Source of the DNA: a virus
DNA length: 35,432 nucleotides
Virus record (IMG/VR): IMGVR_UViG_3300030333_007796
Coordinates: 1 to 35,432 of that record
Reading direction: 5' to 3' (one strand)
Positions 14,231 to 31,983 of this stretch are shown one piece after another. How positions within the stretch are numbered: position 1 is the stretch's first letter; each line of letters starts with the position of its first letter. The notes beneath the pieces were generated by a model. The model made no database searches. It had not been told where the DNA came from and saw only the letters and a list, made by a program, of their open reading frames with translations. Both the position numbers and the translations under genes were made by a program.

Positions 14231-14236
14231 TTGTTA

Positions 14237-16609
14237 ATGGGATCTTTAGTAAAATCTAGTCTAAGCGCGCTTAGTTCAGCAGAGGCTAGCCTTTGTCCGA
14301 TGAATATTGAACTAGATCAATTTTCACGGACTTTTAATGGCGATTTTAAATTAAACTTTATACAAGCTCTATCTGGATCTCAGAGCTTTAAAAAATTAAA
14401 CTATACTAATTTTTACCTAACAGACAAATATTTACTAGATAACGTTACAACGTATACATCACCAAACGTGGAGCCAGGAAAATATAGTACCACATTAAAT
14501 TTCGGTGTAACGGGTAATGCATTTTGCGGTTTTCGAAATGCTTCAATAAGTTCTTTTAGATTAGAAAATGTAATTTATGAAGCGGAAAATTACGGGACTG
14601 CAGCAGTGTCGCAGTTAAGTGGGGATGTTTTTGAGATTGAACTAGTGGATAATTTTACATGTAGAGTTGGTATTCGTAAAAATAATATCCGCTACTTTCT
14701 TGTAGTAGAAGACGAGACCGAGCTTACAGATACCCGTGATGTTCTTTTTGTTGCAGAGAGTCAAATACCACTATCTAGCGCTAATTTGCAGTATAATTTA
14801 TCAAAATATCTTACCAATAGTTATATTAATTTATATTCTCCAAAAAAACAAGCTAGTACTATCGATAGATATGTTATTAATAGTAACGGTGGAAAGGTTG
14901 TCGCGACACGACTAGATCAATTCGGTTTATACAACGAATTTGTAGCTAATTCTTATCATATAAGATTAGATCAAGAATTAAATTTAACGACACCATCACC
15001 CTATAATGCTTCATACGTTACATATAATAATAGCGGTAAAATTGAAGATAATAGTAGTGATTTTAATCTCCCGTCTAATTATTTGTTATATAGTTCAAGT
15101 AATGAAAATGCCCTTACGTTTAATTTCTTAAATTTAAAAAATATAGTTAATACACAAGATTCATTTACATCTTCAAATAACTTATTATCCACATCGGAAA
15201 CATCTATATTTGCACAAGACTTACGAAGGTATACTAGTATATTTTCGGATATTGATAGTGAACAAAATGAAACATTAGCATTGAATTATGTTTATAATAA
15301 TTTTGATTTAATAATCACACCCGGAACTACGTTTTTTACAACGCCATCTTCCCTCCAACCGTTTGATAAGATAAACATTAATGACACTAAATTTACAGAC
15401 TGTGGGTCGTTTGCATTTTTATCTCCAAGCTTAGCTGATCGTGTGTATAATTTGGATGATAATGTTGATAAAAATGAAAATGTAACTTATCTTTGCACTT
15501 GGCTTTCAGGTGGAATTGGTAAGCGTGGTGTTTGGGTTGATAGATATTTTTACCCCGACTTAACTACAAAAGAAGCAGCACTTAACGGTATACCGTCGTT
15601 TAATATTACTTATGACACCGCTGTAGAGAACTTAATAATGAGCAACTCTACTCTAAAAACATCAGTAACTAAAAAATTATATTTCGATAAGAAAAGTGAT
15701 TTAGTTTTCGAGCCCTCAAAACGTTACAAGTACGTTAGAGTGACAAAAGACGATTTTGTAATGAAGTCGCCTACTAATTTTTGTGATGCAACAACGGTAG
15801 ATAGGCAGATCGCTAATTATTTTTCAACTATAAACAAGAATGGAGGATTTGGATTAGGATTTACAATACAAAACGATACAACTGATTTTTATATTGAATC
15901 AGAATATAATGCAATCGACGGTGGTATATGTTTTAAGAAGAATGGAAAGAAGTGTAAGTTTACATATAAGTTTTTTGATAATAGTACAGAGGGAATTAGC
16001 TTATCTGCGAGAATAGCTGAAACAACGTTTGAATATGACTTTGAAATAGACTTATTTGAGATGAATAACATATTTTTATCTTTCGATGCAATTCTCGGCG
16101 AAGGTAAGCTATTTCTTAATTCTGTTGAGCTGTTTAGTTTCGAAGTTAACGCGTTTCAAATGTTTACAAAAAGAGTACTCTTTGGCGACATATTTATATA
16201 TTATACGGATGAAGATAATACACAACAAAGTATAGAAATATTACGTAATGCTGCTTTAGATCAAGAAGATAGAGTCGCAATCGATAATTTATACTTATCC
16301 TTAGAACCATTAAATGAAAACGAACGATTGGCGTTTTTATTTAGTTCGAACTTAAACGATATTCAGGATATTACTATTTCGCTGCCATGTGGTATGAGAA
16401 ACTTAACTGATAATATTGATATTGTTAATTCTATTAATACAAATTTAAAACACAAGAGTAATACAGTTGATATAAATGTTAAAAATTTAAATATAACTAA
16501 TAAAGGTATTCAGGAGGAAGTAAAAAATATTATTTTATCAAATATTAATAAAGCAATACCCGAATCAACAAATATTAACGAAGTTAAGTTTATAAATTAC
16601 AAGAAATGA
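14237..16609 (+). CDS. Large tail protein with possible LamG-like region
   Basis: This 790-residue protein begins MGSLVKSSLSALSSAEASL. I do not recognise the family. Most of it is Asn/Ser/Thr/Phe-rich and beta-like. Around residues 535-660 the pattern GFGLGFTIQNDTTDFYIES, followed by alternating strands and a segment ending GKLFLNSVELFSFEV, resembles a concanavalin/LamG-type sandwich, which often binds glycans. That is only a visual impression. I chose ATG 14237, not TTG 14231, because the late promoter box CATAAATA would otherwise abut the start codon and ATG is the stronger initiator. The stop overlaps the next ATG as ATGA, so the following gene is coupled. Confidence 0.75.
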   Translation: MGSLVKSSLSALSSAEASLCPMNIELDQFSRTFNGDFKLNFIQALSGSQSFKKLNYTNFYLTDKYLLDNVTTYTSPNVEPGKYSTTLNFGVTGNAFCGFRNASISSFRLENVIYEAENYGTAAVSQLSGDVFEIELVDNFTCRVGIRKNNIRYFLVVEDETELTDTRDVLFVAESQIPLSSANLQYNLSKYLTNSYINLYSPKKQASTIDRYVINSNGGKVVATRLDQFGLYNEFVANSYHIRLDQELNLTTPSPYNASYVTYNNSGKIEDNSSDFNLPSNYLLYSSSNENALTFNFLNLKNIVNTQDSFTSSNNLLSTSETSIFAQDLRRYTSIFSDIDSEQNETLALNYVYNNFDLIITPGTTFFTTPSSLQPFDKININDTKFTDCGSFAFLSPSLADRVYNLDDNVDKNENVTYLCTWLSGGIGKRGVWVDRYFYPDLTTKEAALNGIPSFNITYDTAVENLIMSNSTLKTSVTKKLYFDKKSDLVFEPSKRYKYVRVTKDDFVMKSPTNFCDATTVDRQIANYFSTINKNGGFGLGFTIQNDTTDFYIESEYNAIDGGICFKKNGKKCKFTYKFFDNSTEGISLSARIAETTFEYDFEIDLFEMNNIFLSFDAILGEGKLFLNSVELFSFEVNAFQMFTKRVLFGDIFIYYTDEDNTQQSIEILRNAALDQEDRVAIDNLYLSLEPLNENERLAFLFSSNLNDIQDITISLPCGMRNLTDNIDIVNSINTNLKHKSNTVDINVKNLNITNKGIQEEVKNIILSNINKAIPESTNINEVKFINYKK

Positions 16610-18630
16610 TTGAATACTTTAAATATACAACTGGTGGATCGTTTACCTTAAGCGGAGCGGATTATAATGGCTTTGTAAACGTGAGAGATGGCGTCGCTTA
16701 TACAGGTAAGACATTCTCTACTGCTTCAAAAATTCTTCAATCGCAAGACACGTTTTTTGCTAATTGTATACTTGATAAGTTAGAATTCGATAGAACGGTG
16801 ACTCCGGTTGACCGGTCTACGGTGTTAACAAAACCAGAGATTTCGCCTAGAAGAGTAATCGATCAATCTTTTATTGATACAAACTTACAAATTTTTAATC
16901 AAAATAATTTAAATCTATATGCTTTAAATATTATATCTCAAACAGATTTACTTAATTTCAAAAATTCTGCAAAAGACGGTAATGCTTATTTTTTAGGACT
17001 ATCTAGTGGTAAATTTGATATACGCAATAACGATACAAAATTGCCTAAGGATAATATATACCCTCTACAAATAGATCCCTTTAGCTACATTAACAAGGTG
17101 CCTGGTGTAAATGTATTAGATGATACTATTGATAGTACATTGTTTGTATATAACGATGAAACGTTTTTTTACTTTACGACAACGCCAACAGCTTCTCATA
17201 CTTTTTCTGGTAGTTTTATAAAAAATACAACTCTTATACCTATAATGCCAGACCAAGAAGATGGCGAAACGTTGTTCAAAGGCGGTACTAGATTTACGTA
17301 TGATAACTCAACGGATATTCTCTATAGTCTATCTGCTGGAAGTGATGCTGTAGATTTAAATCTGTATGATAATAGTTTTGTTAATCCTTGTGGTAAATTA
17401 AAACTTGTAGATAAGATAATCCTTAACGAAAATATTATAGACAAAACAGTTAAGATAGGTAACAACCTGCTCGGATATCGATATCTTGAAATTTATGAGG
17501 ATGGTGGCAGTACACCGGCTATTGCTATTAGAAATAAGTATTCAAATAAGTTGATTAAAAATATTATTTGCGAAGAGGAAACAATAATTGCTTTTGATAT
17601 AAGAGATTCAGATGATTCTATACTAGTATTAACTGAACCAAGTCAAGCACCTCCGGATATTTGTAGTGGTGATACAGGCACAGATGGAGTCTTTTATTTA
17701 TATCAGTTAGATGCAGAAAAAATAACCGATCTAAGTACAAATTTAAATCCTAAAGTTATATATAGACACACCCCGACATATGACTTTACCGCAGTAAATG
17801 AAGAAGATATAGAGATATTTTTCTCACAAAATGATTCTAATATCTTTATATTAAACGATAGGGGGTTTATTACAACGAGATTTATATCAAATCCTAGCGA
17901 AGCTTCTGGATTCGCTAACCCTGAAAATCTACAGTATCTTCCGGATATGTACTTTAACAACACCGGTGAACGATTTAATTTAATACAAAAAAAGTTTAAC
18001 TCTAACATACTAAAATCAAACTATCTTAACTTCATTAATTATATAATTACTAAAAATGATACTGATTTATTCTTTTTGATGCATAATATTGGTCGAATAT
18101 ATCTGTTTAAGGAAAGTAATTTATTATATCAAAATTTTGTACCTCTTGACCTTAAAAACTTGTATGAAAAGATAACTAGTTGTGAGTCTAGTTTAGGCAT
18201 ATCTTTAAATAGTGAGATACAGAATATTGTTAAAGATACGGTAAGTATATTTTTAAATTTAAGTCTTATACCCTCAAAAGCAGTAGTAGATGGGATTCCC
18301 ATATTAAGGGAGTATACTACATATAAAGGATTAGATATTAATTTTAGAGATATAGAATTTCATGAAAATGAAGCTGTAGATTATAATGTTATATCGAGAG
18401 TATTTAACGAGCTTTTCGAATTACAGGAACAAGTTTTAAATAGTGTCCTAGATACTGCAGAAGAGCCTGTAGAAGAAGATGATTTTATAGGTACTATTGT
18501 TGTAGGAGATGCTGAATTTGAAGAGTTAAATATTACTAGCGTTGAAGAAGAGAGAGATCTAACACCTGGAAGCTCACAACCAAGTGCACCTAGAAGCTCA
18601 CAACCAAGTGAAGGGGGGAGCAGCTATTGA
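16606..18630 (+). CDS. Large tail/baseplate protein with Ser/Pro-rich C-terminus
   Basis: This 674-residue protein starts MIEYFKYTTGGSFTLSGADY, and the segment up to about residue 60 (YNGFVNVRDGVAYTGKTF) looks like a compact beta domain. The middle has repeated short strands with Asp-rich turns, such as FFSQNDSNIFILNDRGF, which might form a propeller-like fold. The region around 545-610 is helical, with FNELFELQEQVLNSVLD. The final 60 residues are acidic and then Ser/Pro-rich, ending in two near-identical GSSQPS-type repeats encoded by a 24-base tandem repeat. It is coupled to the preceding gene by ATGA. It is likely structural; the function is unknown. Confidence 0.75.
   Translation: MIEYFKYTTGGSFTLSGADYNGFVNVRDGVAYTGKTFSTASKILQSQDTFFANCILDKLEFDRTVTPVDRSTVLTKPEISPRRVIDQSFIDTNLQIFNQNNLNLYALNIISQTDLLNFKNSAKDGNAYFLGLSSGKFDIRNNDTKLPKDNIYPLQIDPFSYINKVPGVNVLDDTIDSTLFVYNDETFFYFTTTPTASHTFSGSFIKNTTLIPIMPDQEDGETLFKGGTRFTYDNSTDILYSLSAGSDAVDLNLYDNSFVNPCGKLKLVDKIILNENIIDKTVKIGNNLLGYRYLEIYEDGGSTPAIAIRNKYSNKLIKNIICEEETIIAFDIRDSDDSILVLTEPSQAPPDICSGDTGTDGVFYLYQLDAEKITDLSTNLNPKVIYRHTPTYDFTAVNEEDIEIFFSQNDSNIFILNDRGFITTRFISNPSEASGFANPENLQYLPDMYFNNTGERFNLIQKKFNSNILKSNYLNFINYIITKNDTDLFFLMHNIGRIYLFKESNLLYQNFVPLDLKNLYEKITSCESSLGISLNSEIQNIVKDTVSIFLNLSLIPSKAVVDGIPILREYTTYKGLDINFRDIEFHENEAVDYNVISRVFNELFELQEQVLNSVLDTAEEPVEEDDFIGTIVVGDAEFEELNITSVEEERDLTPGSSQPSAPRSSQPSEGGSSY
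18569..18610 (+). repeat. Tandem repeat, 24-base period
   Basis: GAAGCTCACAACCAAGTG occurs at 18569-18586 and again at 18593-18610. The two copies encode S-S-Q-P-S units at the C-terminus of the 674-residue tail protein. Confidence 0.85.
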
Positions 18631-18653
18631 TCTGTCGATCTTAAAATGTTAAA

Positions 18654-18661
18654 GATAAATA
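18654..18661 (+). promoter_or_regulatory. Late promoter box GATAAATA
   Basis: GATAAATA ends six bases before the ATG at 18668 and heads the adhesin cluster. A TATAAT sequence fills the six-base gap and could be a coincidental sigma70-like match. Confidence 0.75.
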
Positions 18662-18667
18662 TATAAT

Positions 18668-21493
18668 ATGCCAGAAAGACTTGGACCAACCCGTATAGCA
18701 GATACATACACAACATTACTACATGTAAGCGGTGCTAGCATGGCCTCCGCGCATCTAGACGGTAATGCAACTGTGTTTGATGGTGTTGGTAATTCAACTG
18801 GATTAACTCTTAGTACAATTGATGATAGGGTTATAATTAATAACTACATTGAACCTGAAGGCTGGTCTTATCAAAAAGAGTGGTTAGATGCTTTTTTTCC
18901 AATTAATTGCGTCATTGTAACAGCAGATTATGTAAATCCAATGTCGAGAATATACGGAACAAAATGGGTATTACAGTCTGAGGGGTTATTTCCTGTAGGC
19001 GTTGGAACTGGAACTGATAAAAATAATGATACATTTACTTTTACTGCTGGTGGTAATAAACAAAGAACTGACCTAGCTAATGGCGACAAAGCTGGGGAGT
19101 TTAGAGGAGGCATTTCTATTAATGATCTACCACCACATAGCCATACTACCGATACTCAACTAGAGCTTGTTCCAGAGCAACAAGCTGGGACAGGCACCAA
19201 CGTTGGTTTTATCTTTTATTTTGGTGATACTATTAACCCCGATCAATTACAAAGAGAAGATGGTAGATATCTAGATGATGATGCTGTTGAGGCATTTGAA
19301 TATAATACAACTTATAAAGATATTCCTAATTATAGGGATTATATAATAAGAGAAAAGCATCGTAGAGGTGAGGTGTATACAGATAGAGATTTTGATCCTC
19401 GTTTTGGTAATCAGCCTCTTAAGGGATGGGCACCACCGCAAGCAGGAGGACCTGGGTGGGGTGGTATATTAAATACTAGTGGTAAATTTATTGGTAATAG
19501 CCCTAGACCAGTTAACGTAAATTGGACAATAGGAAGTACTAACTTCAGATTACAACCTTCTTTTTATGATCCAAGAGTTAGTGACCGCGTACACCCGGGT
19601 AGATTTCCAGACGATCAGTTAATTAAGGCGCGAGATTTTATAATACAAGTTCTCGGTGTTAAAGAGGCTGCGAAAGCGCTTGCTGGTGTGAATAGATTAA
19701 AAGAACTAGGTCAAACCGTAGAGCAAGCATATTCCGGTGATAATACATATTATTCTCGTATACCTCAAAATAAGATTGTTGAATCATCAACAACCGGACA
19801 ACGTGTCAGACATAACAATATACCGCCCAACCGACCTCTTTACTTTTGGCGCCGGGTTCCTCTTGATTTTGTTGATAATTTACCACCGGATATACGCGTG
19901 TTGCCAATGCAATTTACTATTAAAAGCAATAAAAAATCGACTAAGGGTAATATATTTAATTTAAACGAGTGGGCTGTAGGAGAAGGATGGAATGGTCAAT
20001 CAGCTTGTACGATAATAGTTGATGAAGGTGTTTATATATACTCCGATGACCCTGATGATGATAAAGTGCCTGGAATGATTATAGATACTTTTCCTGGTGG
20101 TTTAACGTTGATAAATAAAGGATTTATCATGGGAAGAGGCGGCAATGGTGGTACTGTGTATACAGACGGACAAAACGGTGGAGATGCTATACATGTAATT
20201 GGTAACTCTGAAATTACTATTGATAACACTAATGGCGGTATAGGCGGCGGTGGTGGCGGTGGGTCTCCATCAAAAGTTGGTGAATGCGGTGGTGGCGGTG
20301 GCGCTGGTGGTGGATGGGGTGGAACCGCATCAATATTCCAACTCCCTGGGTGGAACTTTGGTGACGGTGATGGTAGTATATATGATATTGCAAGTGGATC
20401 TGTACAGCTTGCTGATTTTAATTCTGGCTTTTATGATTATTGGAGAACAACTGCTGCAGGTGGTAAAGGCGGTGAACCTGGTCAACCGGGAGGCCATGGT
20501 CGATGGTTTAATCATTTTACTAGTCAGTATTCACTACAACTATTTAAATCTACAGGCGATATTGTAACAGTAGGCTGGGGACCAGCTTTTCCAAATTTAC
20601 CAGGTATAGGTGGTGAAGCTGGAGGGAGTGGCTCATCAGGAAGAGACAGGGGTCGGACCAAGATTGATGATCAAGGATCAGGTGGTGGTGGCGGTCGTAT
20701 ATTAACGGCTACTGCTTACGGTGGTGGTACAGGAGGTGTTCCTGGATCTCGCTTTGGCGCTATAGATATCGACGGTAACATAAGAACTGACGGCCCTGCA
20801 TGGAGTAATACAGCACCAGCAAGGAATGGATCGGTGAGTGTCAAAGAGACACCTAGACCAGGCAGATCAAAACCTCTAATAACTGAAACGTATAAAACAG
20901 CTTATGATAGTAGTCAACCATACAAGGGATGGAATTCCGGGTATAGGTTGAGATCGCCATCAGGTTACGGGTCTGGTCCACACCGAGCTATTGGACCGCA
21001 TTGGAGAGCTAATGGAGTTAATGGAGGCACGACTGGTCTTCCTTATATTATAGCCGGTGTAAATAAACCAGGGAGAGGAAGTCACACGTCACAAAAAGTA
21101 ACCACATATCTAAATTATAATGGATTTTCATATCTATCACCTACAGGTTGGGATGGTTATAATCATAGGTCCGCGCTGATTGCCGGTGGTAGTACTAATC
21201 AGCCCGGTATATACGAGCCAGCTAATGCCAGACGTGTAATTGGCGGGCAAGATTTATGGAGCGGAGTCTACACGGAAAATACTGCTGCTGGTGGTGGTGG
21301 TTGGGGCGCGCCCGGTGGATTAGCATGGAGAGGTGGACGTACATGGCGACCTGAGATGGATACGAGGGGTACTGGGCGAATGCTAAAAAAACCTGGTAAT
21401 GGAGGTCTTACAGTAAAAGCTATAGCTGGTAAAGTTACAATAATCGGTGGTTTAGTATATGGTGAAACTCAAGGAAATGTCAACATTAGATAG
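18668..21493 (+). CDS. Tail adhesin: gp12-like metal-binding base with long Gly-rich domain
   Basis: This 941-residue protein is probably a receptor-binding tail protein. Residues 1-400 are paralogous to the next gene. They contain FDGVGNSTGLTLS, a GTKW-x-L-Q-S-E-G-L-F-P-V-G-V-G segment and LPPHSH, with H157 and H159, then HNNIPP at 382-387. In T4 gp12, HxH residues from three chains bind zinc, so a metal-stabilised trimer is likely. From about residue 487 the protein is extremely Gly-rich, starting MGRGGNGG and including runs of seven and five Gly. This resembles the polyglycine-helix adhesin domain of T-even-type gp38 proteins such as that of phage S16. No chaperone gene is evident. Confidence 0.85.
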   Translation: MPERLGPTRIADTYTTLLHVSGASMASAHLDGNATVFDGVGNSTGLTLSTIDDRVIINNYIEPEGWSYQKEWLDAFFPINCVIVTADYVNPMSRIYGTKWVLQSEGLFPVGVGTGTDKNNDTFTFTAGGNKQRTDLANGDKAGEFRGGISINDLPPHSHTTDTQLELVPEQQAGTGTNVGFIFYFGDTINPDQLQREDGRYLDDDAVEAFEYNTTYKDIPNYRDYIIREKHRRGEVYTDRDFDPRFGNQPLKGWAPPQAGGPGWGGILNTSGKFIGNSPRPVNVNWTIGSTNFRLQPSFYDPRVSDRVHPGRFPDDQLIKARDFIIQVLGVKEAAKALAGVNRLKELGQTVEQAYSGDNTYYSRIPQNKIVESSTTGQRVRHNNIPPNRPLYFWRRVPLDFVDNLPPDIRVLPMQFTIKSNKKSTKGNIFNLNEWAVGEGWNGQSACTIIVDEGVYIYSDDPDDDKVPGMIIDTFPGGLTLINKGFIMGRGGNGGTVYTDGQNGGDAIHVIGNSEITIDNTNGGIGGGGGGGSPSKVGECGGGGGAGGGWGGTASIFQLPGWNFGDGDGSIYDIASGSVQLADFNSGFYDYWRTTAAGGKGGEPGQPGGHGRWFNHFTSQYSLQLFKSTGDIVTVGWGPAFPNLPGIGGEAGGSGSSGRDRGRTKIDDQGSGGGGGRILTATAYGGGTGGVPGSRFGAIDIDGNIRTDGPAWSNTAPARNGSVSVKETPRPGRSKPLITETYKTAYDSSQPYKGWNSGYRLRSPSGYGSGPHRAIGPHWRANGVNGGTTGLPYIIAGVNKPGRGSHTSQKVTTYLNYNGFSYLSPTGWDGYNHRSALIAGGSTNQPGIYEPANARRVIGGQDLWSGVYTENTAAGGGGWGAPGGLAWRGGRTWRPEMDTRGTGRMLKKPGNGGLTVKAIAGKVTIIGGLVYGETQGNVNIR

Positions 21494-21509
21494 TATTTTC
21501 AAATTGCGA

Positions 21510-21517
21510 CATAAATA
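21510..21517 (+). promoter_or_regulatory. Late promoter box CATAAATA
   Basis: CATAAATA matches the T4 late consensus at seven of eight positions and ends eight bases before ATG 21526. Confidence 0.7.
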
Positions 21518-21525
21518 ATAGTAAT

Positions 21526-22602
21526 ATGCCAGAGAGTTTAACAGATCAATTTATATCTGATTTCTATACTTCTTTACTTCATCTTAATGATGAAAATTCT
21601 GCACCTGTATTAAATGAAGTATTTGATGGTGCTGGTAATTCTACTGGATTAGCTCTAAGTGGTAAAAGAGTTGTAATTAATAATTACATATACCCTGAAG
21701 GGCCTTTACGTCCTACAGATTGGTTAGAAACCTTTTTTCCGGTTGGTAGTGTGCAGCTAACCTTAGATAATATTAACCCTCAAACAAGAATAGCAGGAAC
21801 TGTTTGGCAAATTATTGCTGAAGGGCAATTTTTAGTTGGTGTGGGGGAACATGTGGATAAAAATGGTGATTTTAAGAAATTTTGTGATTATACAAGACCG
21901 CCTGGTTCTGGTCAAGATGACGGTGAATACATGACAGAGCTTTCCATTGCCAATCTTCCTCCACATCGACATGATATGAATGTCGGGGCGAGTGACGTGT
22001 TTGCATCAACCGGGAACCCAGTAGGCAACGGGCAAACATTCCAAGCTTCGCCGGTTGGAACTACTAACTCATCTGTCGAGTGGGCAAATCAGCAGCGGTA
22101 TCGTAATGCGTTAGCAGCGCGCTCTGGATGGAATTTAGATAATGATTTTGGTAATAATAGTAGCGATGTAAATAATGTACAAGATATTATGAGAAGATCG
22201 CTTGATCTTAATTTTATGAAAGGATCTGCTGCTAATTATTCTGCAGTTGAACGCGCAGCGTTTGAAACAGACACACAATTTCAGTATAAGGAAGTAATTG
22301 GTCTATGGAATGGTGAAACACGATTTGTAGCTAGTGTAATACCAGAAGGTGTTGGCCCTGAGTGGGATTTTAATGTATATAATGCATGTATAGAATTAGG
22401 TGCAGTTGATGTAGGCAGCGCCACAGCTGGGGAATTAGCCGTCAATAATAGTGTTACGCCTGTAATAGTAAAAGATTCTGAACAAGTAACTTTCAACCTG
22501 GGAACAACTAATATAACCGAATCAACATTAGTTGGTGAGGGAACTAAGCATAACAATATACCACCTTCTTATGGGGTGTACGTATGGCAACGAATATCAT
22601 AA
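21526..22602 (+). CDS. Tail adhesin/short fibre protein, gp12-like, paralogue of preceding gene
   Basis: This 358-residue protein shares its plan with the first 400 residues of the preceding gene: MPE start, FDGAGNSTGLALS, VVINNYIYPEG, WLETFFPVGS, then RIAGTVWQIIAEGQFLVGVG. The metal-binding motif is LPPHRH (H147, H149). The C-terminus ends with HNNIPPSYGVYVWQR (from H342), the usual end of gp12- or gp10-type collar domains. The protein stops there and lacks the Gly-rich extension of its neighbour, so it may be the short, ancestral form or a capping fibre. It has its own late promoter box. The stop lies four bases before the next ATG. Confidence 0.85.
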   Translation: MPESLTDQFISDFYTSLLHLNDENSAPVLNEVFDGAGNSTGLALSGKRVVINNYIYPEGPLRPTDWLETFFPVGSVQLTLDNINPQTRIAGTVWQIIAEGQFLVGVGEHVDKNGDFKKFCDYTRPPGSGQDDGEYMTELSIANLPPHRHDMNVGASDVFASTGNPVGNGQTFQASPVGTTNSSVEWANQQRYRNALAARSGWNLDNDFGNNSSDVNNVQDIMRRSLDLNFMKGSAANYSAVERAAFETDTQFQYKEVIGLWNGETRFVASVIPEGVGPEWDFNVYNACIELGAVDVGSATAGELAVNNSVTPVIVKDSEQVTFNLGTTNITESTLVGEGTKHNNIPPSYGVYVWQRIS

Positions 22603-22606
22603 AATT

Positions 22607-24178
22607 ATGGCAAATATTACTATAGTAAAATTAAAAGTTAGAAGAGGTAGCGACAAGCAGCGAAAGGAAATTATTTTGGATCAGGGTGAGGTTGGCTACA
22701 CTCTAGATACAAGAAGATTGTTTGTTGGTGATGGTGCTACTTATGGTGGTTTTGTCGCTGGTAATAAGAACGTCGGGCCGTTTTCTAATAAAGCTAGTTT
22801 AGGACCAGCAGCAGGTGAATCACCCGGACTTCAAGTGGGTGATATAGGCTATGCAGAGAGTAGGTTATATATATTAACCGGTGCTAGCTCTACTGGAAAA
22901 GATTATACAGATGCATTATCCGGGTGGGCTTATATAGGAAATGTCCCTGACAATAATAAGCTTCAATTTGATGGGGATAATAAATTGACTGTAAAGAAAC
23001 AGTCCCTCGATGGAGCATACTTAGGTTCGACATTTTTTGGTAATGGCTTATTATCTTCTAACGCTTCAGCGCAGGTTGCATTAAATTCTGATTATATCAT
23101 ATTATCAAGTGCTCCCGGTGCTACAGGAAGATTAACGCCAAAATCAGGCTCTATAACAGAAAGAGAGATTAAAACGTTAACCGGGCCAGGATTACAAGGA
23201 GGTACAGATCCTGGTGCAGGTAATTCCCAAGAACTATCACTTAACGTTAACGAAAAACAATTTAAATTTGATGGTGATAATAAGTTAGAATTAAGAAGCT
23301 TACAAGATTTAACAATTCCTGTTTCAGCTTGGGCTGGTAGTGGCGACGGCACTGGTGTTGGTGGAAAACTAGGTGGTGGGTTGTCTCTAAATACTGGAAC
23401 AAATCAACTACAAACAAATTTAAGAACAGTAGATGAAACGCTTCTTGCAGTTAATGCTAATGGTCAAATCACACTAGCAGGCGCTGAGGATAAAGTAATG
23501 GAAATGCCCTACATAGATAATAAGAAGGGATTAATTACAGAAATAAAATCTTCCATTTTTGACGTTATTACAGCAACTGGACTTTCTGGCGCCGGCGCAG
23601 GCGACGGGGTACCAATTGGCTCTATACTACCACACGCGCAAGCATTTACAACACCACCAGCTGGGTATTTACTCTGCGATGGTAGCGCTTTCGATGCTGT
23701 AGCAAATCCAAAGTATAGAAATCTTTTTGAGAAAATAGGTACTGTGTATGGTGGTACAGGAATGGATAACTTCTTAATACCTAAATTAACAGGAAGTGAT
23801 GTTATGTTATATGGAGCTGGGGAAGCTATTACATCTACCACTGCGACTCTCTTCTTAAGCGCTACCGACTCTTCTCTCTCTGGTCCGGATAAGAAGCCAC
23901 CATATAATACCCTTAGTGCTTTTGGTGTTAACTTTATTATCAAATACGCGGAAGATCCTGTGCTAAATATCTTTAACGGCGCGCCGAATCAAGTTAGTAA
24001 TAAATTTACCGATAAATATACACAGCAAGTGTGTTACGGATTAGACTCCGGAGCAAATGCTGTACAACTAAGTTCTGCAGGATTCATTACAATGTCATTG
24101 TCAGGAACGGTACGTAATCCTGCTAATACAGATAACAATAAGTTTGATAGATTTGCGATACCTGTTTATAGTTATTAA
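22607..24178 (+). CDS. Tail fibre protein with Mtd-like N-terminus and phage collar domain
   Basis: This 523-residue protein begins MANITIVKLKVRRGS. Residues 12-43 (RRG, then ILDQGEVGYTLDTRRLFVGDG) match the N-terminal domain seen in major tropism determinant-type fibre proteins, where it forms the trimer base. From about residue 335 it has a phage tail collar domain: GSILPHAQAF, PAGYLLCDGSAFD, then YGGTGMDNFLIPKL. This domain is common at receptor-binding tips. I chose ATG 22607 because the frame's earlier in-frame ATG (22532) lies inside the previous gene, which ends at 22602, and because MAN followed by the RRG motif is the normal family start. It is paralogous to the next gene. It was probably duplicated in place. 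Confidence 0.85.
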   Translation: MANITIVKLKVRRGSDKQRKEIILDQGEVGYTLDTRRLFVGDGATYGGFVAGNKNVGPFSNKASLGPAAGESPGLQVGDIGYAESRLYILTGASSTGKDYTDALSGWAYIGNVPDNNKLQFDGDNKLTVKKQSLDGAYLGSTFFGNGLLSSNASAQVALNSDYIILSSAPGATGRLTPKSGSITEREIKTLTGPGLQGGTDPGAGNSQELSLNVNEKQFKFDGDNKLELRSLQDLTIPVSAWAGSGDGTGVGGKLGGGLSLNTGTNQLQTNLRTVDETLLAVNANGQITLAGAEDKVMEMPYIDNKKGLITEIKSSIFDVITATGLSGAGAGDGVPIGSILPHAQAFTTPPAGYLLCDGSAFDAVANPKYRNLFEKIGTVYGGTGMDNFLIPKLTGSDVMLYGAGEAITSTTATLFLSATDSSLSGPDKKPPYNTLSAFGVNFIIKYAEDPVLNIFNGAPNQVSNKFTDKYTQQVCYGLDSGANAVQLSSAGFITMSLSGTVRNPANTDNNKFDRFAIPVYSY

Positions 24179-24181
24179 ATA
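24174..24181 (+). promoter_or_regulatory. Late promoter box ATTAAATA overlapping a stop codon
   Basis: ATTAAATA includes the TAA stop (24176-24178) of the preceding fibre gene and ends nine bases before ATG 24191, the longest spacing of the set. Confidence 0.5.
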
Positions 24182-24190
24182 TTAAAACAT

Positions 24191-25867
24191 ATGGCCATAG
24201 AAATATTAGAAAATACCTTGCTAAAGCTTCTTGTTAGAAGAGGAACTAACTTCGATAGACAGCAAATTGTTCTTGAAACAGGGGAGCTTGGCTACACAAC
24301 AGATACAAAAAGATTATATGTTGGAGATGGTGTGGTAAAAGGTGGAGTTGTAACGGGTAATAAATGGGCTGGGTCAGCAGCAATTTTAACGAATTTAGCG
24401 CCAGCTGTTAGTGGTGATTATGCATATGATACGGATAACCGGTGCTTTAAAGTTCTGACTAAAGGAACAGGTAGCGCAGCAAATGATTGGACGACAGTAT
24501 CTAATTTAATAAGCGCTAAGGATACAACAATTGTTATAGACACACAAAATAGAATTACTGTTGGAAAGCTATCTGCTGGAGACATTGATTATAACGCTCT
24601 TGGAAGTTCTCTTACTTTAGACCCATCGAATAAGGTTTCATTAAGTTCAGCGATTAGCATTGATACTGTATATCAACGAGATACTGGAGTTACTAGTTAC
24701 CTTTCATTACCAGCAAAATTAAAGATTAATGCTGTAGATTATACTTTCCCGACAACAGAACCACAGCCTGGGACATTTTTAGGTTATAGTACAACAGACG
24801 CTGCTTTAAATCCGCAACTTGCTTGGCAAGTGCCAAAAATTGTATATTCAGCTGTAGCTCCAACTACTGCAGCATTAATACCTGTTGGCACTATTACACC
24901 TTATGCAGGTCCTATATCTGCTGCACCATATGGGTGGTTAAATTGTAACGGGCAAGCTGTGGATGCGACCACATATTCCGATCTTCTTACAGCTATTGGC
25001 GGTCAGTATGGTCGTAATTTTATAAATAATACATTTAATGTACCGAATTTAAGCTCAACGTTTATCCATGGATTTGCTCCTGGTACGGGTGCAGCAGAGA
25101 GTCTTGGATATCAATTCCCAGCTCGCGGGGCGGGATTATCAGCGCAGAAGACAACTCTTTCTGCTGTTGGAATGAACTTTATTATTAAAGCTTTTAACGG
25201 TGTAACAAACCCGACATTAACTGTTGGGGGCAACTTATCAGCAACGATGCGATCGCCATCTGACCAAGTAGTTGATAAGACTGAAATATCATTTAACCCA
25301 CTTAGTGGTGAGATAACAATAAGAAGAGCAACGCCAGGTATTAAAAGATATACTGCCGCAGGTAATCATAACTTTACGATGCCAAACGGGATTTCATTTG
25401 TTAAGTTTTACGTAACGGGATCTGGATCAGTAGGTGATTATAGATCTGGAAGCGCTGGCTCAACAGCAATTGGCTATTTATCTGCTAAACCTGGAACAGT
25501 ATTTCCGATTGAAGTTGCTGCAGCACCGGTTTGGGCGGCTTCACCGGGTGGTAAAACAAGTTACATACGCGAGCCAGCAGCTGAAGGTACCAGTGCCCTG
25601 GTGACAGCTCCTGGTGGGCCATTTGGCAATCCCTCAACACCAGCGACTCCAACTGTTGCAGAAAGTAATTATCTACCAACTGAAACCATTTTGATACAAG
25701 GCGGTACCGGTGGTATTGATACAGATGATGGCGGTGATGAAGAAGATAATGGTGGAGCTGGTTACTGGGGGCATGCACCAGCACCAGGTGGCGGTGGCGG
25801 ATCTCATAAAAATAATCCGATGGCTGGGTTTCCTTCTGCTGGTATAGTTGTATTTGAATGGAACTAG
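24191..25867 (+). CDS. Tail fibre protein with Mtd-like N-terminus, collar domain and Gly-rich tip
   Basis: This 558-residue paralogue of the preceding gene has the same N-terminal pattern (VRRGT, then IVLETGELGYTTDTKRLYVGDG). A collar domain from about residue 232 contains VGTITPYAGP, APYGWLNCNGQAVD and YGRNFINNTFNVPNL. It differs at the C-terminus. From about residue 385 (KRYTAAGNHNFTMPNG) it has an added domain that becomes Gly/Ala/Pro-rich, with GGTGGIDTDDGGDEEDNGG and PGGGGGS near the end, finishing in VVFEWN. This Gly-rich end recalls the adhesin at 18668-21493, so a receptor-contact role is likely. There is no sign of a diversity-generating retroelement nearby. Confidence 0.85.
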   Translation: MAIEILENTLLKLLVRRGTNFDRQQIVLETGELGYTTDTKRLYVGDGVVKGGVVTGNKWAGSAAILTNLAPAVSGDYAYDTDNRCFKVLTKGTGSAANDWTTVSNLISAKDTTIVIDTQNRITVGKLSAGDIDYNALGSSLTLDPSNKVSLSSAISIDTVYQRDTGVTSYLSLPAKLKINAVDYTFPTTEPQPGTFLGYSTTDAALNPQLAWQVPKIVYSAVAPTTAALIPVGTITPYAGPISAAPYGWLNCNGQAVDATTYSDLLTAIGGQYGRNFINNTFNVPNLSSTFIHGFAPGTGAAESLGYQFPARGAGLSAQKTTLSAVGMNFIIKAFNGVTNPTLTVGGNLSATMRSPSDQVVDKTEISFNPLSGEITIRRATPGIKRYTAAGNHNFTMPNGISFVKFYVTGSGSVGDYRSGSAGSTAIGYLSAKPGTVFPIEVAAAPVWAASPGGKTSYIREPAAEGTSALVTAPGGPFGNPSTPATPTVAESNYLPTETILIQGGTGGIDTDDGGDEEDNGGAGYWGHAPAPGGGGGSHKNNPMAGFPSAGIVVFEWN

Positions 25868-26301: not shown

Positions 26302-27201
26302 ATGGCCAAACTAGACGGTTTTCCGACTGATATAACTTTACCTGCTCTTTCAAGATACTACAATTTTATTGAGGTAGGAAAGTCTTTCAATTCTAACTAT
26401 GATATAACATGGTCTTTTCAATATAAGCTGCCTAGTACTAGCTTTGGTACAACAGCTAAGTTTCATAACTACCAATTAGGGTTTTCAACGTTCTTAACTA
26501 ACTTACCCGGGCCGATTTCTTCTTTACCTGGTCAATATTTAGGAGATCAAGACCCGGAATTTGTATTATCAGCTCAAGCATTATTGACAGAAGATTCAAA
26601 AATGTTAAAAACCCAAGGTGATTCTACAATTTTACTTGAAGGTGCTATACTTAGTGGTATGTTAGTCAAAGTAGCATTTGACTCCACGGGTAAATATGCT
26701 TTATCAGGTAGAGACCGCCGGCCAGGGGTAAAGGAGAAGGAGGCGTTAAGAGAGTCAATTATAGTGCGGGACTTTTTACATAATGTAGTCATTAACAATC
26801 ATCTTTCTTCTATATCTACATCTTTTAGTACAATTTCTACCGATACATATAGAACTTTAAGATTTAGATATGTAGATCTAGGGAGAAAATTATATATAGA
26901 TTCAAGAGAAAGTGATACAACTACATATACTTTATTAACATCTATTAATCTAGGTACAAGATATACTACTTTATCAAATATAGAAAATATATATTGTGGG
27001 TTTTCATTTTGTACGCCAATCTCTGCAAATTATGCTGCGACTGCTGCTGCTTATGAATTAAGTGCAAAAGATTTCTTTTTAAGGAACTTTCATGTTGAAG
27101 GGTATGAGGGTAGTCAAGTTACTACAGAAACTATTTTAACACCGCAATTAAGCGTGGTACCAAATGTAATACCAACAACCGTTACTAATATTAGCGCATA
27201 A
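26302..27201 (+). CDS. Probable beta-sandwich tail protein (LamG-like appearance)
   Basis: This 299-residue protein shows alternating hydrophobic strands throughout: SNYDITWSFQYKLPS near residue 31, a central GAILSGMLVKVAFDSTG, then LRFRYVDLGRKLYIDSRES at about 191-209. The last part, with an arginine-rich strand followed by 'L-x-I-D-S', resembles the second half of LamG or concanavalin-like sandwiches, which often bind sugars. That is a visual judgement. The C-terminal 40 residues are Thr/Val-rich. It overlaps the next gene by one base (TAATG), so it is coupled to the large Thr/Pro-rich protein and may assemble with it on the virion. Confidence 0.7.
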   Translation: MAKLDGFPTDITLPALSRYYNFIEVGKSFNSNYDITWSFQYKLPSTSFGTTAKFHNYQLGFSTFLTNLPGPISSLPGQYLGDQDPEFVLSAQALLTEDSKMLKTQGDSTILLEGAILSGMLVKVAFDSTGKYALSGRDRRPGVKEKEALRESIIVRDFLHNVVINNHLSSISTSFSTISTDTYRTLRFRYVDLGRKLYIDSRESDTTTYTLLTSINLGTRYTTLSNIENIYCGFSFCTPISANYAATAAAYELSAKDFFLRNFHVEGYEGSQVTTETILTPQLSVVPNVIPTTVTNISA

Positions 27202-30200
27202 TGAATCCGAACGATGCAGAATACTTTAGAACAGACTCTGGTTATCCCGAGTCTGGAAGCGTAAATTTAGGAAGCCCAGATGTTGAAATATCAGATATTA
27301 TTTGCGGTGTTCATGAATACCCACAATTAGGTACCGGTGGCGTTGTAAATTCTTTCGAAAATACTGCTGGTATTGTTGAGATTAATTACGTTACTTTAAC
27401 TCGAAATATTGATGGTAATGTAGAGTTTTTTGTTGAAGATTACAATAGTCAAGAGGAATTAGAGGAGGGGGAGTCAGCATCTATCTTTAATGACGAGCCT
27501 GAAACTCCAGAACAACAGGGCAGGGTTAATATTAATACACCAGGATTAAGATTTACAGCGGATCAGGTTGCTGAAGACGGTAGTATGGATATCACTGTTA
27601 CGCTTCAGCAAATTATTGATGGAGTTCCACATACAAGATCACTTACAAAAAATATACCCAACCCTGTAACGCCGGCTGATGCACCACCGGAAACTCCACA
27701 AGGTCCGAGTGAAGAGGAGCAACCTACACAAGATCAAGGCACCAGTACAGATGGAAAGGGTGCAACTGCTGCGTCGACAGTCACGGATGGAGCGTCTGTC
27801 TTTATTCCAACTGAAGGTGTGGGGTCGCTGGGAGAGATGAGAGAGATATTAAACGGTCTCATACAATCTGGTATTCCTACTGCTAATCAGGATGCTAACT
27901 CAGCTTTAAACGCGAGGACAATTATTGGTCGATTTAGACCAGGTATACAAAATCTACACAATACGATTAGGAATAGCAGACAGTTTAGTGCTGGGTTTAA
28001 AGCTAGAGTTAAGGCTAGTTATGATGCCTCTGTGGATTTTGAAAAAGCTATTGAAGGGTTATATCCTCTAGTAGAAGCAGTACAAAACAATATAAATATT
28101 TGGTTAAATGAAATCGGTACCGCGTCTAACAACGGGGAGGCTGCCCCTGTTGAGCCTTATCTTGATCTTACATTATCTGCAGTTTTAGAATTAACTACAG
28201 AAGTAGAAGCTGTAAATTTATTAGGTAGCGATGCCCAGGCTCTTGGTTCGGAGGCTGGTGGTGATAAACGTTGGCAAGTTACTCAGTTAACAGAAGATGC
28301 TGCGATTGAATTTTACGATAGTGTACTTGTCCCTGTTAATAGATTAAGTGAAATTTTACAAGTATATATCGATATACGAAAAGAATTAGCAGCTATTGAA
28401 GTTGCCTTAAGGGCAGCAGAGGCTGCAAGATTAGAGAGAGAAAGACAAGCTGAAGAAGCAAGAAGAAAGCGGGAGCAGCAAGCAGCTGAGAAGGCTAGAG
28501 CCCTGCAACAAAAAGCAGACCAACAGGCAGAGGCAGAAGCTCGAGCTGCAGGTAAAGCAGCAGAAGCTGCAGAGGCACAATTAGAGAGAGAACGACAGGC
28601 CGCAGAGCGTGAACAGAGAGAAGAAGAACGGCAAAAGCGATTAGACGAGATAAATCAGCGTCGAGATGAACTTCGAGCAAAGAACAGGGATGAAGTAATA
28701 CCTTCTCTAAGTGATCAAGATCTTGCTAAACGGTTGGATGATACTAGATTAAGGCTTGCTGGAGTTGAATCAGGTAGTATCCCGGATCCATTGGGATTAT
28801 TAGCTAGATGGTATGCAGAGGATATAACAGCATATGAACAAGAACTAGAACGGAGAAGTGAACAAGAAGCAGAAAGAAGAGCAGCGTTAATAGCAAATAT
28901 AAGAAAGCTTCGAGAACAGCAAGTTCAAGAAAGAGATGACGCGATACCAACGATGAGTGGTGACGAGCTACTTCAAGCTTTAAATGCTGTACGCAGTACT
29001 CTTAATGGAATAAGGGCTGGTCTTATTCAAGACCCTTTTGGCTTACAAGCAACATATTTACAAGAAGATATAGATGCATATGAAGCTGAAATAGCTAGAC
29101 GACAAAGTGATGTTGTTTCTGAAGGCGGTGGTATAGTTTCCGTAGACCCGCCTTCTACAGACTGCTGTGGTCCGTATGTCGAATGGTTTTATGATCCAGA
29201 AGGTCTTCCAGGACAACAGTCTTGGGTTGATAATCTTGATTCTAAATTAGGTATATTTGATCTAGGGGATCTTGTAGAACAAGCAATTGCAGATAGTAAT
29301 CCAAGAACACCGGATGGACAGCGTCTACCAGCATTAAAACCTGAAGAGTGGGGATCTTGGTCAAAAATAGTTGTTAAGTATGAAGGTCGTTGTTATACAA
29401 TAAAAAGTCCAAGATTTGCTAGACGCTTGGGAAGAGATCCTTATAAATCAACTGCTCCAGATGGAATTGGTCTAAGAACAGAAGATGATAATCCCTGGCA
29501 GTTATGCAATGGGCATGGAAAATGCTGCGAACCACAAGGTTCAAGACCTGGGGATTCTTCAATTGATACACCAAACGAAGGAATCGTTTCTGATCAGCCG
29601 GCAACTGCCCCACCTCCCGTCGACGGTACTACAACTCCGCCTCCTGACGACGGTACTACAACTCCACTACCAATTTATTGCGAACCACCAAGGGTATGGG
29701 ACCAACAATCTCAGAGATGCGTGTGCCCGGAGGGATTTGAGGAAGATGAGAATGGAAATTGCGTTGAAATGCCTGAAGATCCTCCATCTGATGATTCATC
29801 AGGATCATCCGGAGGAATAGACGACCGTCCTTTCGATTCTGGGTTAATCCAGACCGGCCCGGATCCTATAACAAATATAGACCTTACATATACTGAGGAA
29901 ACTACACCACCGCCAACGACACCACCACCGTATTACACGACGCCGCCATATTACACTACTACTTCTACCACTACTTCTACCACAACATCGACAACACCTT
30001 ATTATACAACACCACCACCGCCTTGTACACAAACAACAAGAAGACCGCCTACATACACTAGTACTAGGACGATTGATGGAACGGAACCACCTCCTACTCC
30101 GGCACCGGGAACACAGCCGCCTGCTCCTGGCACGCAACCACCAAGAGCACCGGTGGTGAGAATATACCCTGCTCCAATACTACCTCTGCAGAGGCCTTTC

Positions 30201-30335
30201 TTAATGAGAGAGGTAATAGGTGTTACTACAACCCTAGCTGTTGTTACTACGACTCTAGCACCGGTTATTAGAACAATACCACCAACAACCACTTTATGTC
30301 CAGAGGATCCTGATTGCAATAATTTACGGTTTTAG
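27201..30335 (+). CDS. Large modular virion protein with coiled coil and mucin-like Thr/Pro domain
   Basis: This 1044-residue protein has four visible parts. Residues 1-390 are acidic and mixed. Residues 393-500 are an Ala/Glu/Arg-rich coiled coil. Two copies of a roughly 70-residue unit follow, starting near 487 and 568 and offset by 82 (RDEVIPSLS and RDDAIPTMS). Next come a DCCGPYVEW segment and an EGF-like cysteine group (C827, C840, C842, C854). Residues 901-985 are Thr/Pro/Tyr-rich, including TTTSTTTSTTTSTT; 22 of residues 901-941 are Thr or Ser. It ends CPEDPDCNNLRF. There is no signal peptide, so it is probably a virion fibre. The Thr-rich stretch is an obvious candidate for O-glycosylation by the two enzymes encoded next. 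Confidence 0.8.
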   Translation: MNPNDAEYFRTDSGYPESGSVNLGSPDVEISDIICGVHEYPQLGTGGVVNSFENTAGIVEINYVTLTRNIDGNVEFFVEDYNSQEELEEGESASIFNDEPETPEQQGRVNINTPGLRFTADQVAEDGSMDITVTLQQIIDGVPHTRSLTKNIPNPVTPADAPPETPQGPSEEEQPTQDQGTSTDGKGATAASTVTDGASVFIPTEGVGSLGEMREILNGLIQSGIPTANQDANSALNARTIIGRFRPGIQNLHNTIRNSRQFSAGFKARVKASYDASVDFEKAIEGLYPLVEAVQNNINIWLNEIGTASNNGEAAPVEPYLDLTLSAVLELTTEVEAVNLLGSDAQALGSEAGGDKRWQVTQLTEDAAIEFYDSVLVPVNRLSEILQVYIDIRKELAAIEVALRAAEAARLERERQAEEARRKREQQAAEKARALQQKADQQAEAEARAAGKAAEAAEAQLERERQAAEREQREEERQKRLDEINQRRDELRAKNRDEVIPSLSDQDLAKRLDDTRLRLAGVESGSIPDPLGLLARWYAEDITAYEQELERRSEQEAERRAALIANIRKLREQQVQERDDAIPTMSGDELLQALNAVRSTLNGIRAGLIQDPFGLQATYLQEDIDAYEAEIARRQSDVVSEGGGIVSVDPPSTDCCGPYVEWFYDPEGLPGQQSWVDNLDSKLGIFDLGDLVEQAIADSNPRTPDGQRLPALKPEEWGSWSKIVVKYEGRCYTIKSPRFARRLGRDPYKSTAPDGIGLRTEDDNPWQLCNGHGKCCEPQGSRPGDSSIDTPNEGIVSDQPATAPPPVDGTTTPPPDDGTTTPLPIYCEPPRVWDQQSQRCVCPEGFEEDENGNCVEMPEDPPSDDSSGSSGGIDDRPFDSGLIQTGPDPITNIDLTYTEETTPPPTTPPPYYTTPPYYTTTSTTTSTTTSTTPYYTTPPPPCTQTTRRPPTYTSTRTIDGTEPPPTPAPGTQPPAPGTQPPRAPVVRIYPAPILPLQRPFLMREVIGVTTTLAVVTTTLAPVIRTIPPTTTLCPEDPDCNNLRF
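29958..29981 (+). repeat. Short tandem repeat in the Thr-rich domain
   Basis: ACTACTTCTACC occurs twice in tandem and encodes T-T-S-T twice. A diverged third copy with the same coding (ACAACATCGACA) follows at 29982-29993. Confidence 0.85.
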
Positions 30336-30346
30336 TAATTATTAAT

Positions 30347-31177
30347 GTGGGAAAGCTTACTATTGGAACTTGTGTTCATGATGATTTCGAAGGTCTCTAT
30401 TTTACGTTACAATCTATAAGATTACATCATAAAGATATTTTAGACCGGTTGGAATTTGTTGTTATTAACAATAATCCTAAATCTCCTGAAGGTCAAGAAA
30501 TCCGTAAATTAATGGGATGGATTACTGAACCTTTAACATACGTTGAATTTGATGCATTTTCTGCAACATCTCTAAGAGATAAAATATTTGGACTTGCAAA
30601 CACTGAATATGTCTTAGTGCTGGACTGTCACGTGTTGCTCGAGCCTGGTAGCTTAAAAAAACTTCTAGATTTCTATGATGCAGGTAAAGATAACAGAAAT
30701 CTCATTCAAGGGCCTCTAATATATGATGATATGGAAAACATTAGCACACACTTTGACCTTACTAAATGGGGTGCTGATATGTGGGGTGTATGGGAGACAG
30801 ATAAAAGAGGTCTAAATCCAGATGGAAAAGCTTTCGAAATTCCAGCTCAAGGGTTAGGGTTATTTACTTGTAGAAAAGATAGTTGGTTAGGATTTAATGA
30901 GAAATTTAGAGGGTTTGGTGGTGAGGAAGGTTATATTCACGAGAAGTACCGTAATGCAGGGAGAAAAGCTGTATGTCTCCCCTCTCTTCGATGGTTACAT
31001 AGATTTGGTCGACCACTGGGTGTGTCGTATGGACCTACAATAGAGGATAGGTTCCGAAATTATATGATAGGGTTTCAAGAGATCGGTAAAGATACTAATG
31101 AAATTATTAATAGATTTAAAGATAAGGTATCGAAGGAACATATCCAATCTGTTAAAAAAGAATTAGATATACCATGA
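30347..31177 (+). CDS. GT-A glycosyltransferase with DxH motif, resembling polypeptide GalNAc-transferases
   Basis: This 276-residue protein is a GT-A fold glycosyltransferase. It opens with LTIGTCVHDDFEGLYFTLQS (nucleotide-binding strand and helix). VLDCHVLLEPGSL follows, with D93-C94-H95 in place of the usual DxD. DxH is the metal-binding motif of family GT27, the polypeptide GalNAc-transferases. Later, QGLGLFTCRKDSWLGF (168-183), FGGEE (190-194) and LPSLRWLHR (211-219, with H218) follow the same order as the donor and metal-site segments of that family. No lectin domain is present. It could also be a GT2-type enzyme. The start is GTG 30347, because the nearby ATG 30345 is out of frame and the next in-frame Met is inside the fold. 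It overlaps the next gene as ATGA. Confidence 0.85.
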   Translation: MGKLTIGTCVHDDFEGLYFTLQSIRLHHKDILDRLEFVVINNNPKSPEGQEIRKLMGWITEPLTYVEFDAFSATSLRDKIFGLANTEYVLVLDCHVLLEPGSLKKLLDFYDAGKDNRNLIQGPLIYDDMENISTHFDLTKWGADMWGVWETDKRGLNPDGKAFEIPAQGLGLFTCRKDSWLGFNEKFRGFGGEEGYIHEKYRNAGRKAVCLPSLRWLHRFGRPLGVSYGPTIEDRFRNYMIGFQEIGKDTNEIINRFKDKVSKEHIQSVKKELDIP

Positions 31178-31983
31178 GAAAAACAGTAGGTGTTATTGTA
31201 ATAGCTTCAAATGGCTATTTTCCTTTAGGAATTAGGTTTATAAAGAGATTTGATAATTTTTATAGAGGTGATCATGCTATAAAATATTTTTTCTTTTCTA
31301 ACACTTCGCCTTATAGCTGCATATCTAAGGATATGGCTCGACGAGTAAAACACATGCCAGTAATACATGAAAGCTGGGTAGATAGTACTAATTCTAAATT
31401 TTCTGGTATAAAGAGTATTAACGAAGTTCCGGAGTGGCGTGATATAGACTACATCTACTATTTTGACGCTGATACAAATATTTCAAACCCCTTTACAGAC
31501 TGGTTTATAGGTGATGATCTCGTTGGCGGGGAACATTTTCATTCAAGAAAATGGACACAAGAAGGACCTGGTAGTTTTCCTTTTGAACGAAACGAGGAAT
31601 CGCAATGTTTTATACCTGAAGATACAAACCGGTTTTTAATGTATTATTATGGTGCCTTCTTTGGTGGTGAACGTAATAAAGTTTTTGATTTTTGTGATAC
31701 ATTAATAGAAAGGCAAAAAAAAGATAAAGAATTAGGGATTGAGCCCATTTTCAACGATGAGAGTTATATAAATCATTACTTTCATTACAATATGCCAAAA
31801 ATTATCTATACAGAAAACTTTCCGTTTTTAGTTAGCTGTAAAGGTGGTATCGAGTGTTTCGGTACACCTGAAAAGGGGTGGTTAAGAGACCCGAATATTA
31901 ACATCGATAGTTTAATTAAGACTTTAGAAAGAAATAAAAACGAAACTATCGATGTTGCAAATGGTAAAATTGTAGTAGGTTAA
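31174..31983 (+). CDS. Family 6 glycosyltransferase (ABO/alpha-1,3-Gal(NAc) transferase type)
   Basis: This 269-residue protein shows the signature of family GT6, which includes the histo-blood-group A/B enzymes and adds GalNAc or Gal in alpha-1,3 linkage with retention. Visible elements are YFDADTN with the metal-binding D98-A99-D100, GPGSFPFERNEESQ (131-144), YYYGAFFGG (157-165) and GIEPIFNDESYINHY (188-202). E196 in NDES aligns with the catalytic Glu of mammalian GT6 enzymes (E303 in human A/B). The N-terminal membrane anchor of vertebrate members is absent, as expected for a phage or bacterial form. I recall a GT6 member described in cyanophage P-SSM2. It overlaps the preceding glycosyltransferase gene by four bases, and its stop overlaps the opposing gene's stop. 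Confidence 0.93.
   Translation: MRKTVGVIVIASNGYFPLGIRFIKRFDNFYRGDHAIKYFFFSNTSPYSCISKDMARRVKHMPVIHESWVDSTNSKFSGIKSINEVPEWRDIDYIYYFDADTNISNPFTDWFIGDDLVGGEHFHSRKWTQEGPGSFPFERNEESQCFIPEDTNRFLMYYYGAFFGGERNKVFDFCDTLIERQKKDKELGIEPIFNDESYINHYFHYNMPKIIYTENFPFLVSCKGGIECFGTPEKGWLRDPNINIDSLIKTLERNKNETIDVANGKIVVG

Follow-up and report, generated by a model that had tools for sequence, protein, structure and literature searches.

A marine T4-like phage encodes, where its block of fibre and adhesin genes ends, a tight run of a mucin-like protein, a glycosyltransferase that most resembles the GT27 polypeptide transferases, and a GT6-family glycosyltransferase. The source is the 35.4-kb IMG/VR virus record IMGVR_UViG_3300030333_007796, analysed over its full 35,432 nt (hereafter the window), in which a clamp loader, a dUTPase, gp25- and gp6-like baseplate proteins, a primase and an exonuclease make up T4-like gene content. 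In our best explanation, to which we give a probability of about 0.7, the GT27-like enzyme is a dedicated initiator that O-glycosylates Thr and Ser residues of the mucin-like protein encoded next to it, the extension that follows being variable. We favour this reading because of the enzyme's predicted fold, its linkage to Thr-rich genes in phages, a same-locus comparison of relatives with and without the enzyme, and a corresponding linkage in bacteria. From sequence, predicted fold, conserved residues and gene linkage in both groups we infer the activity, the sugar, the acceptor sites, the virion location and the role.

Results

All three genes lie on the forward strand. The presumed acceptor, a fibre-block protein of 1044 aa, is encoded at 27201..30335. 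The GT27-like glycosyltransferase (276 aa, 30347..31177; D93-x-H95, E193, H218), presumed to be the initiating polypeptide glycosyltransferase, starts with GTG 11 bases past the stop codon of the mucin-like open reading frame (ORF), and its end is overlapped by 4 bases (ATGA) by the GT6 ORF (269 aa, 31174..31983, DAD motif), a possible glycan extender. An earlier reading made from the letters of the window (the sequence-only reading) had described a run of three forward genes with an 11-base gap and a four-base overlap, and the ORFs were found exactly so.

The 276-aa enzyme passes the Pfam GT2 profile (PF00535, 27.2 bits against a cut-off of 23.3) and has no PHROG match. An AlphaFold (AF2) model, for which 45 phage relatives had been aligned (A1), reached a mean predicted local distance difference test score (pLDDT) of 94, and the top 50 Foldseek matches of this model in the PDB were all GT27 (best E 3e-13). 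VIA-align gave Z 20-24 for 29 GT27 entries, followed at Z 18.9 by chondroitin polymerase as the next family; the best GT27 superpositions cover about 253 of the 276 residues at about 2.7 A. In the structural comparison of GT2 and GT27 that the sequence-only reading had proposed, every GT2-type polysaccharide enzyme ranks below the GT27 structures. The GT-A enzyme with a DxH motif that it had named is likewise borne out: the predicted GT-A fold is of the GT27 type, and the motif is D93-C-H95. D93 and H95 are invariant in 60/60 distinct phage sequences, and D93, H95, E193 and H218 are all invariant across an alignment of 51 phage and bacterial sequences. In an alignment of human GALNT2, its sequence verified with 2ffu, to a profile of phage and bacterial members, D93/H95 corresponded to D224/H226, E193 to E334 and H218 to H359 (pairwise E 0.0044). 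In GALNT2 we take these to be the D-x-H metal motif, the active-site Glu and the third metal-ligand His, respectively. The protein ends after its catalytic domain, without the C-terminal ricin-type lectin domain that is a usual, not universal, feature of GT27, and it is nowhere strongly hydrophobic (hydropathy over 19 residues peaks at 1.4). The model and the residue register support a first enzyme whose nearest likeness, in predicted fold and catalytic register, is to the GT27 polypeptide transferases; because sequence searches alone fail to reach GT27, we call it GT27-like and do not file it as a member.

The 1044-aa protein comprises, in order, an N-terminal beta-sandwich, a coiled-coil-like middle, Cys-rich segments, a Thr/Ser/Pro-rich domain and a C-terminal Cys motif. 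The mucin-like domain (residues 901-985; 29901..30155, forward strand) contains 30 Thr, 4 Ser and 26 Pro among 85 residues, and Ser or Thr occupy 22/41 positions in residues 901-941. The densest 40-residue segment of the protein holds 24 Ser/Thr; when the same protein was shuffled 2000 times, the maximum was 18. This density is beyond chance, and both the counts and the shuffles uphold the domain that the sequence-only reading had seen.

Relatives of the enzyme form one family across hundreds of uncultured phages, with 261 matching stretches in IMG/VR. No homologue was found at E 1e-5 among 50,697 phage records, a second enzyme query of isolated phages at E up to 10 gave weak matches only (best E 1), and a homologue from an archaeal metagenome-assembled genome (L187), used as query, returned no further viral loci. 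We pooled 153 loci from three scans and clustered their enzymes at 90% identity, which gave 61 clusters, 60 of them with upstream sequence. A Thr/Ser/Pro-rich ORF ends <=39 bases before the enzyme in 40/60 clusters, at a distance of 11-23 bases in 39 of those, and a further 8 have such an ORF elsewhere in the locus (48/60 in total). Rich ORFs make up 21/805 (2.6%) of the background in the same loci, for a Fisher p of about 2e-38 that overstates the evidence, since the clusters are not independent lineages. Several phages carry two or three Thr-rich genes in tandem, and at L052 the Thr-rich gene is still beside the enzyme but on the other strand.

The neighbouring primase marked a single site at which relatives carrying the enzyme could be set beside relatives lacking it. 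A Thr/Ser/Pro-rich domain with <=4 acidic residues in 40 is present in 19/21 loci with the enzyme and 0/10 without it, some of the compared ORFs being cut off by contig ends. Among the ten enzyme-free loci, six proteins are not rich and four are Thr-rich but acidic (DTT or TETSDG repeats). Collapsed into lineages by our own grouping, the counts become 12/12 versus 0/6 (p 5e-5).

Genome contigs yielded 75 homologues, mostly at 44-51% identity and from many phyla, and in a tree one well-supported branch separates phage from bacterial enzymes. Thr-rich ORFs occur at 0.14/kb within 1.6 kb of the bacterial enzyme, a density that drops about fivefold, to 0.02-0.03/kb, beyond 4.8 kb. Short proteins that begin with a twin-arginine-like stretch, carry a W-x-[KR]-P..PAHA segment and end in a Thr/Pro-rich tail are found near the bacterial enzymes. 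This exported RR...W.KP..PAHA family occurs in 23/29 enzyme-bearing genomes, with at least one copy near the enzyme in 22 (hand-tabulated), and in single-copy genomes the copy is within about 5 kb of the enzyme in 9/9. Among 17 genomes outside the exported-protein profile A4, 11 have matches to the family, 10 of those near the enzyme. In a class-level sample of 190 genomes, enzyme and exported family were both absent outside the starting genome, and no contrast was obtained. The bacterial linkage is evidence separate from the phage loci and indicates an acceptor of the same type; that the genomic partner of the first enzyme is a Thr/Ser/Pro-rich protein is thus supported across many phages and, independently, in bacteria.

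The exported family (RR start, W-x-[KR]-P-[VIL], PAHA, Thr/Pro tail) recurs at L113, L116, L120, L144, L154, L160 and other loci, and we found no published description of it. Judging from its sequence, little but a mucin-like peptide would remain of such a protein after cleavage. In some bacterial homologues (L113, L114, L125, L143) the enzyme is joined to an HprK-related kinase, GT25 or sulfotransferase-like domain, and genes for PqqD-like proteins and PF14907 nucleotidyltransferases are among the neighbours at L113, L120, L136 and L138; these are perhaps further steps of one modification pathway.

The third gene encodes, as the sequence-only reading had it, a GT6 enzyme: it matches PF03414 at 78.3 bits against a cut-off of 25 (E 5.9e-22) and ABO transferases in the PDB at 5e-14, and its intact D98-A-D aligns with the ABO transferase motif. 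The slot after the GT27-like gene holds GT6 only in the window and in L002, with the ATGA overlap in both. None of the 22 other GT6 relatives has the first enzyme, and just one of them has a Thr-rich ORF. A search for GT6 in 11 phage records gave no match, and the control genomes likewise gave none, so this result does not show absence. Elsewhere the same slot carries GT2-type enzymes, as at L016 and L021, a multi-domain sugar enzyme at L022, a GT4-type enzyme at L060, or proteins of no recognised kind, and in most clusters the gene after the GT27-like enzyme is convergent and unrelated. Because the slot varies between phages, the initiator seems to be the fixed element and an extender optional. 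The sequence-only reading had proposed a survey of related phages for Thr/Pro-rich proteins occurring together with the enzyme pair; a Thr-rich ORF does accompany the first enzyme in most clusters, with none seen in 12, but the two enzymes come together only in the two phages named. In another phage type (L060, 1.1-10.7 kb, and L063) a 738-aa Thr/Ser-rich protein is followed, some kb further downstream, by a series of probable sugar genes, GT4 among them, that includes the GT27-like enzyme, in what resembles a larger glycan cassette.

The remaining features concern the surroundings of the run and the other parts of the mucin-like protein. A tail-fibre/baseplate block of fibre/adhesin-type proteins (14231..25867, forward strand), with Gp10_C, GP38-like, Mtd_N and Collar proteins within 18668-25867, precedes the three genes, and we therefore place the Thr-rich gene in the fibre region. 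Immediately upstream of it, a 299-aa protein (26302..27201, forward strand) is common to relatives at the same locus. The enzyme occurs without a Thr-rich partner in the available sequence at L034, L038, L051, L026-L031, L338 and L346; at L026-L051 it follows, or converges with, a homologue of this 299-aa gene, which could be an alternative acceptor there. The N-terminal domain of the 1044-aa protein is modelled by AF2 as a beta-sandwich (pLDDT 79); a named fold was dropped, with no PDB or viral match at E below 0.001. A Cys segment directly before the mucin-like domain (YCEPPRVWDQQSQRCVCPEGFEEDENGNCVEMPEDPP / CEPPRVWDQQSQRCVCPEGFEEDENGNC, residues 826-862; 29676..29786, forward strand) is EGF-like in appearance only and has no Pfam match at E<=1; an EGF-like-looking module adjoining a mucin-like domain is an arrangement usual in animal proteins. 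The protein ends in the motif LCPEDPDCNNLRF (30294..30332, forward strand), of the form C-[NK]-x-L-x-[FYW]. This ending is found in 41/61 enzyme clusters, is preceded by a second Cys a few residues before it, and is kept on otherwise very different proteins. It is also kept in relatives without the enzyme (L212, L213, L225, L226, L229, L231-L233, L235, L236). We considered the motif as the enzyme's tag and rejected this, because it is present both with and without the enzyme; it is possibly an assembly or anchoring element.

Discussion

In the mechanism that we propose, the soluble 276-aa enzyme would act in the host cytoplasm, before or during assembly, and add a sugar directly onto Thr/Ser in the Thr/Ser/Pro-rich domain of the protein whose gene ends 11 bases before its own. 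The Thr-rich protein of the tail-fibre block would thereby become a sugar-coated, stiffened and protease-resistant stalk, and the variable downstream enzymes (GT6, GT2-type or multi-domain, and nothing in most phages) may modify the first sugar. That the first enzyme starts a glycan on the phage's own Thr-rich protein, as the sequence-only reading had suggested, is supported by the predicted fold, the residue register and the linkage to Thr-rich partners. A stiffening or protease-resistance role would follow the precedent of the Streptococcus mutans Pgf system, whose modification of the adhesin Cnm raises protease stability (PMC5856776), and masking or mimicry by the glycan-coated protein is speculation. 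We lean slightly towards the wider proposal that uncultured phages have a mucin-type O-glycosylation of their own, in which a GT27-like initiator is paired with a fast-evolving mucin-like virion protein, and that the initiator belongs to a broader prokaryotic family whose members, across many bacterial phyla, decorate Thr-rich proteins that are exported.

Several observations weigh against this interpretation. In 12/60 clusters no Thr-rich ORF is adjacent or elsewhere in the available sequence, and these include an 80-kb record that was scanned whole; two of the 12 still have a protein with the C-terminal Cys motif adjoining the enzyme. The more distant relatives L241, L244, L252 and L260 have Thr/Pro repeats and no enzyme nearby, and the link between Thr-rich protein and enzyme is therefore strong but not absolute. 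Profile A4 was built mostly from proteins near enzymes, which makes the bacterial linkage partly circular. Neither of two profiles of the enzyme family reached any GT27 chain in the PDB by hmmsearch, and the kinship with GT27 therefore rests on structure and residue register. Finally, the Thr-rich protein is a presumptive virion component, on the evidence of its tail-fibre-block location.

The clusters without a Thr-rich partner would also fit an ordinary GT2-type enzyme acting on host lipopolysaccharide (LPS), capsule or another glycan, with a Thr-rich neighbour merely by virtue of the variable fibre region. Pfam does name the enzyme GT2, and capsule- or polysialyltransferase-like enzymes occupy the downstream slot in some phages. 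We nevertheless regard this as unlikely, given that GT27 structures score above all GT2-type polysaccharide enzymes and that such an enzyme would lead one to expect neither the nearly fixed 11-23-base spacing in almost all adjacent cases, nor the outcome of the same-locus comparison, nor the linkage, in bacteria, to unrelated exported proteins that are Thr-rich. Glycosylation of modified bases in phage DNA is a common role of phage glycosyltransferases (PMC12619734), and the enzyme stands beside replication or recombination genes in a few phages (L061, L074, L337). The predicted fold is that of a polypeptide transferase, however, the enzyme is usually placed after a structural-block gene, and the bacterial homologues are chromosomal and beside exported proteins, all of which makes a DNA substrate extremely improbable.

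How the enzyme finds its acceptor, and what the GT6 enzyme does, admit further alternatives. Recruitment through the C-terminal Cys motif would be in keeping with its frequency in enzyme clusters and its presence in tandem Thr-rich paralogues, but the motif is retained in glycosyltransferase-negative relatives (the L212 to L236 set) and bacterial partner proteins are without it, and we think such recruitment very doubtful. It is plausible that GT6 acts on the sugar added by the first enzyme. This extension step, also part of the sequence-only reading, has weak support: it gains from the four-base overlap and loses from a pairing confined to two phages and from the 22 GT6 relatives that do without the first enzyme. 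Somewhat short of an even chance, in our estimate, is that the first enzyme glycosylates the Thr-rich protein while GT6 is an unrelated passenger, for instance for host-surface modification. The restricted pairing and the GT6 relatives, nearly all lacking a Thr-rich ORF, speak for a passenger; the ATGA overlap in both phages, which suggests coupled expression, and the other sugar enzymes in the same slot of other phages speak against one. A passenger GT6 is compatible with our best explanation for the first enzyme.

Among known systems, GT27 (GALNT2, Toxoplasma GalNAc-T3) is by far the closest GT-A fold, shares the D-x-H, GGE and H register, and offers a likeness in the linkage to Thr/Ser/Pro-rich acceptors. 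The phage-encoded enzyme differs in being a catalytic domain alone and in lying beyond the reach of HMMER profile searches. According to a 2014 review, an equivalent GALNT was yet to be identified in bacteria (PMC4202792). Glycosylation of mycobacteriophage capsids and tail tubes has been published (Freeman et al. 2023, as cited in PMC12619734 and PMC10877033), and there phage-encoded glycosyltransferases act on the phage's own structural proteins; as far as these citing accounts go, the C-termini of capsid and tail tube are modified, rather than a dedicated mucin-like protein whose gene adjoins that of the enzyme. The sequence-only reading, which took DNA or host LPS to be the usual expectation, overlooked this work, and its view that a self-decorating stalk would be new holds in part: phage virion glycosylation is not new, but a GT27-like enzyme with a mucin-like partner is, as far as the literature searched shows. 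We found no report of such a GT27-like, mucin-type phage system in a search that left subscription papers largely outside. In Streptococcus mutans the GT-A enzyme PgfS is encoded directly downstream of Cnm, whose threonine-rich region is glycosylated (PMC5856776). The gene order is alike, but the Pgf system is a bacterial cell-surface one with two membrane proteins and an epimerase, unlike the phage enzyme with its lack of a strongly hydrophobic stretch. GT6 is known in cyanophages and bacteria, most bacterial members having NxN (PMC3961637), and P-SSM2 is one of the cyanophages. The window enzyme is a member of this family that differs from most bacterial ones in its metal-binding DxD and is distinguished by its overlap with a GT27-like gene.

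Direct, lipid-free Ser/Thr initiation of mucin-type O-glycans is regarded as eukaryotic. If our reading is true, a GT27-like family in phages and many bacterial phyla, linked with Thr/Pro-rich partners, would bear on the origin of mucin-type initiation, and its members, small and soluble, would be of use for glycosylation in cell-free systems or in E. coli. The gene pairing makes the reading directly testable with three genes. If true, it also suggests that marine phages carry sugar-coated appendages.

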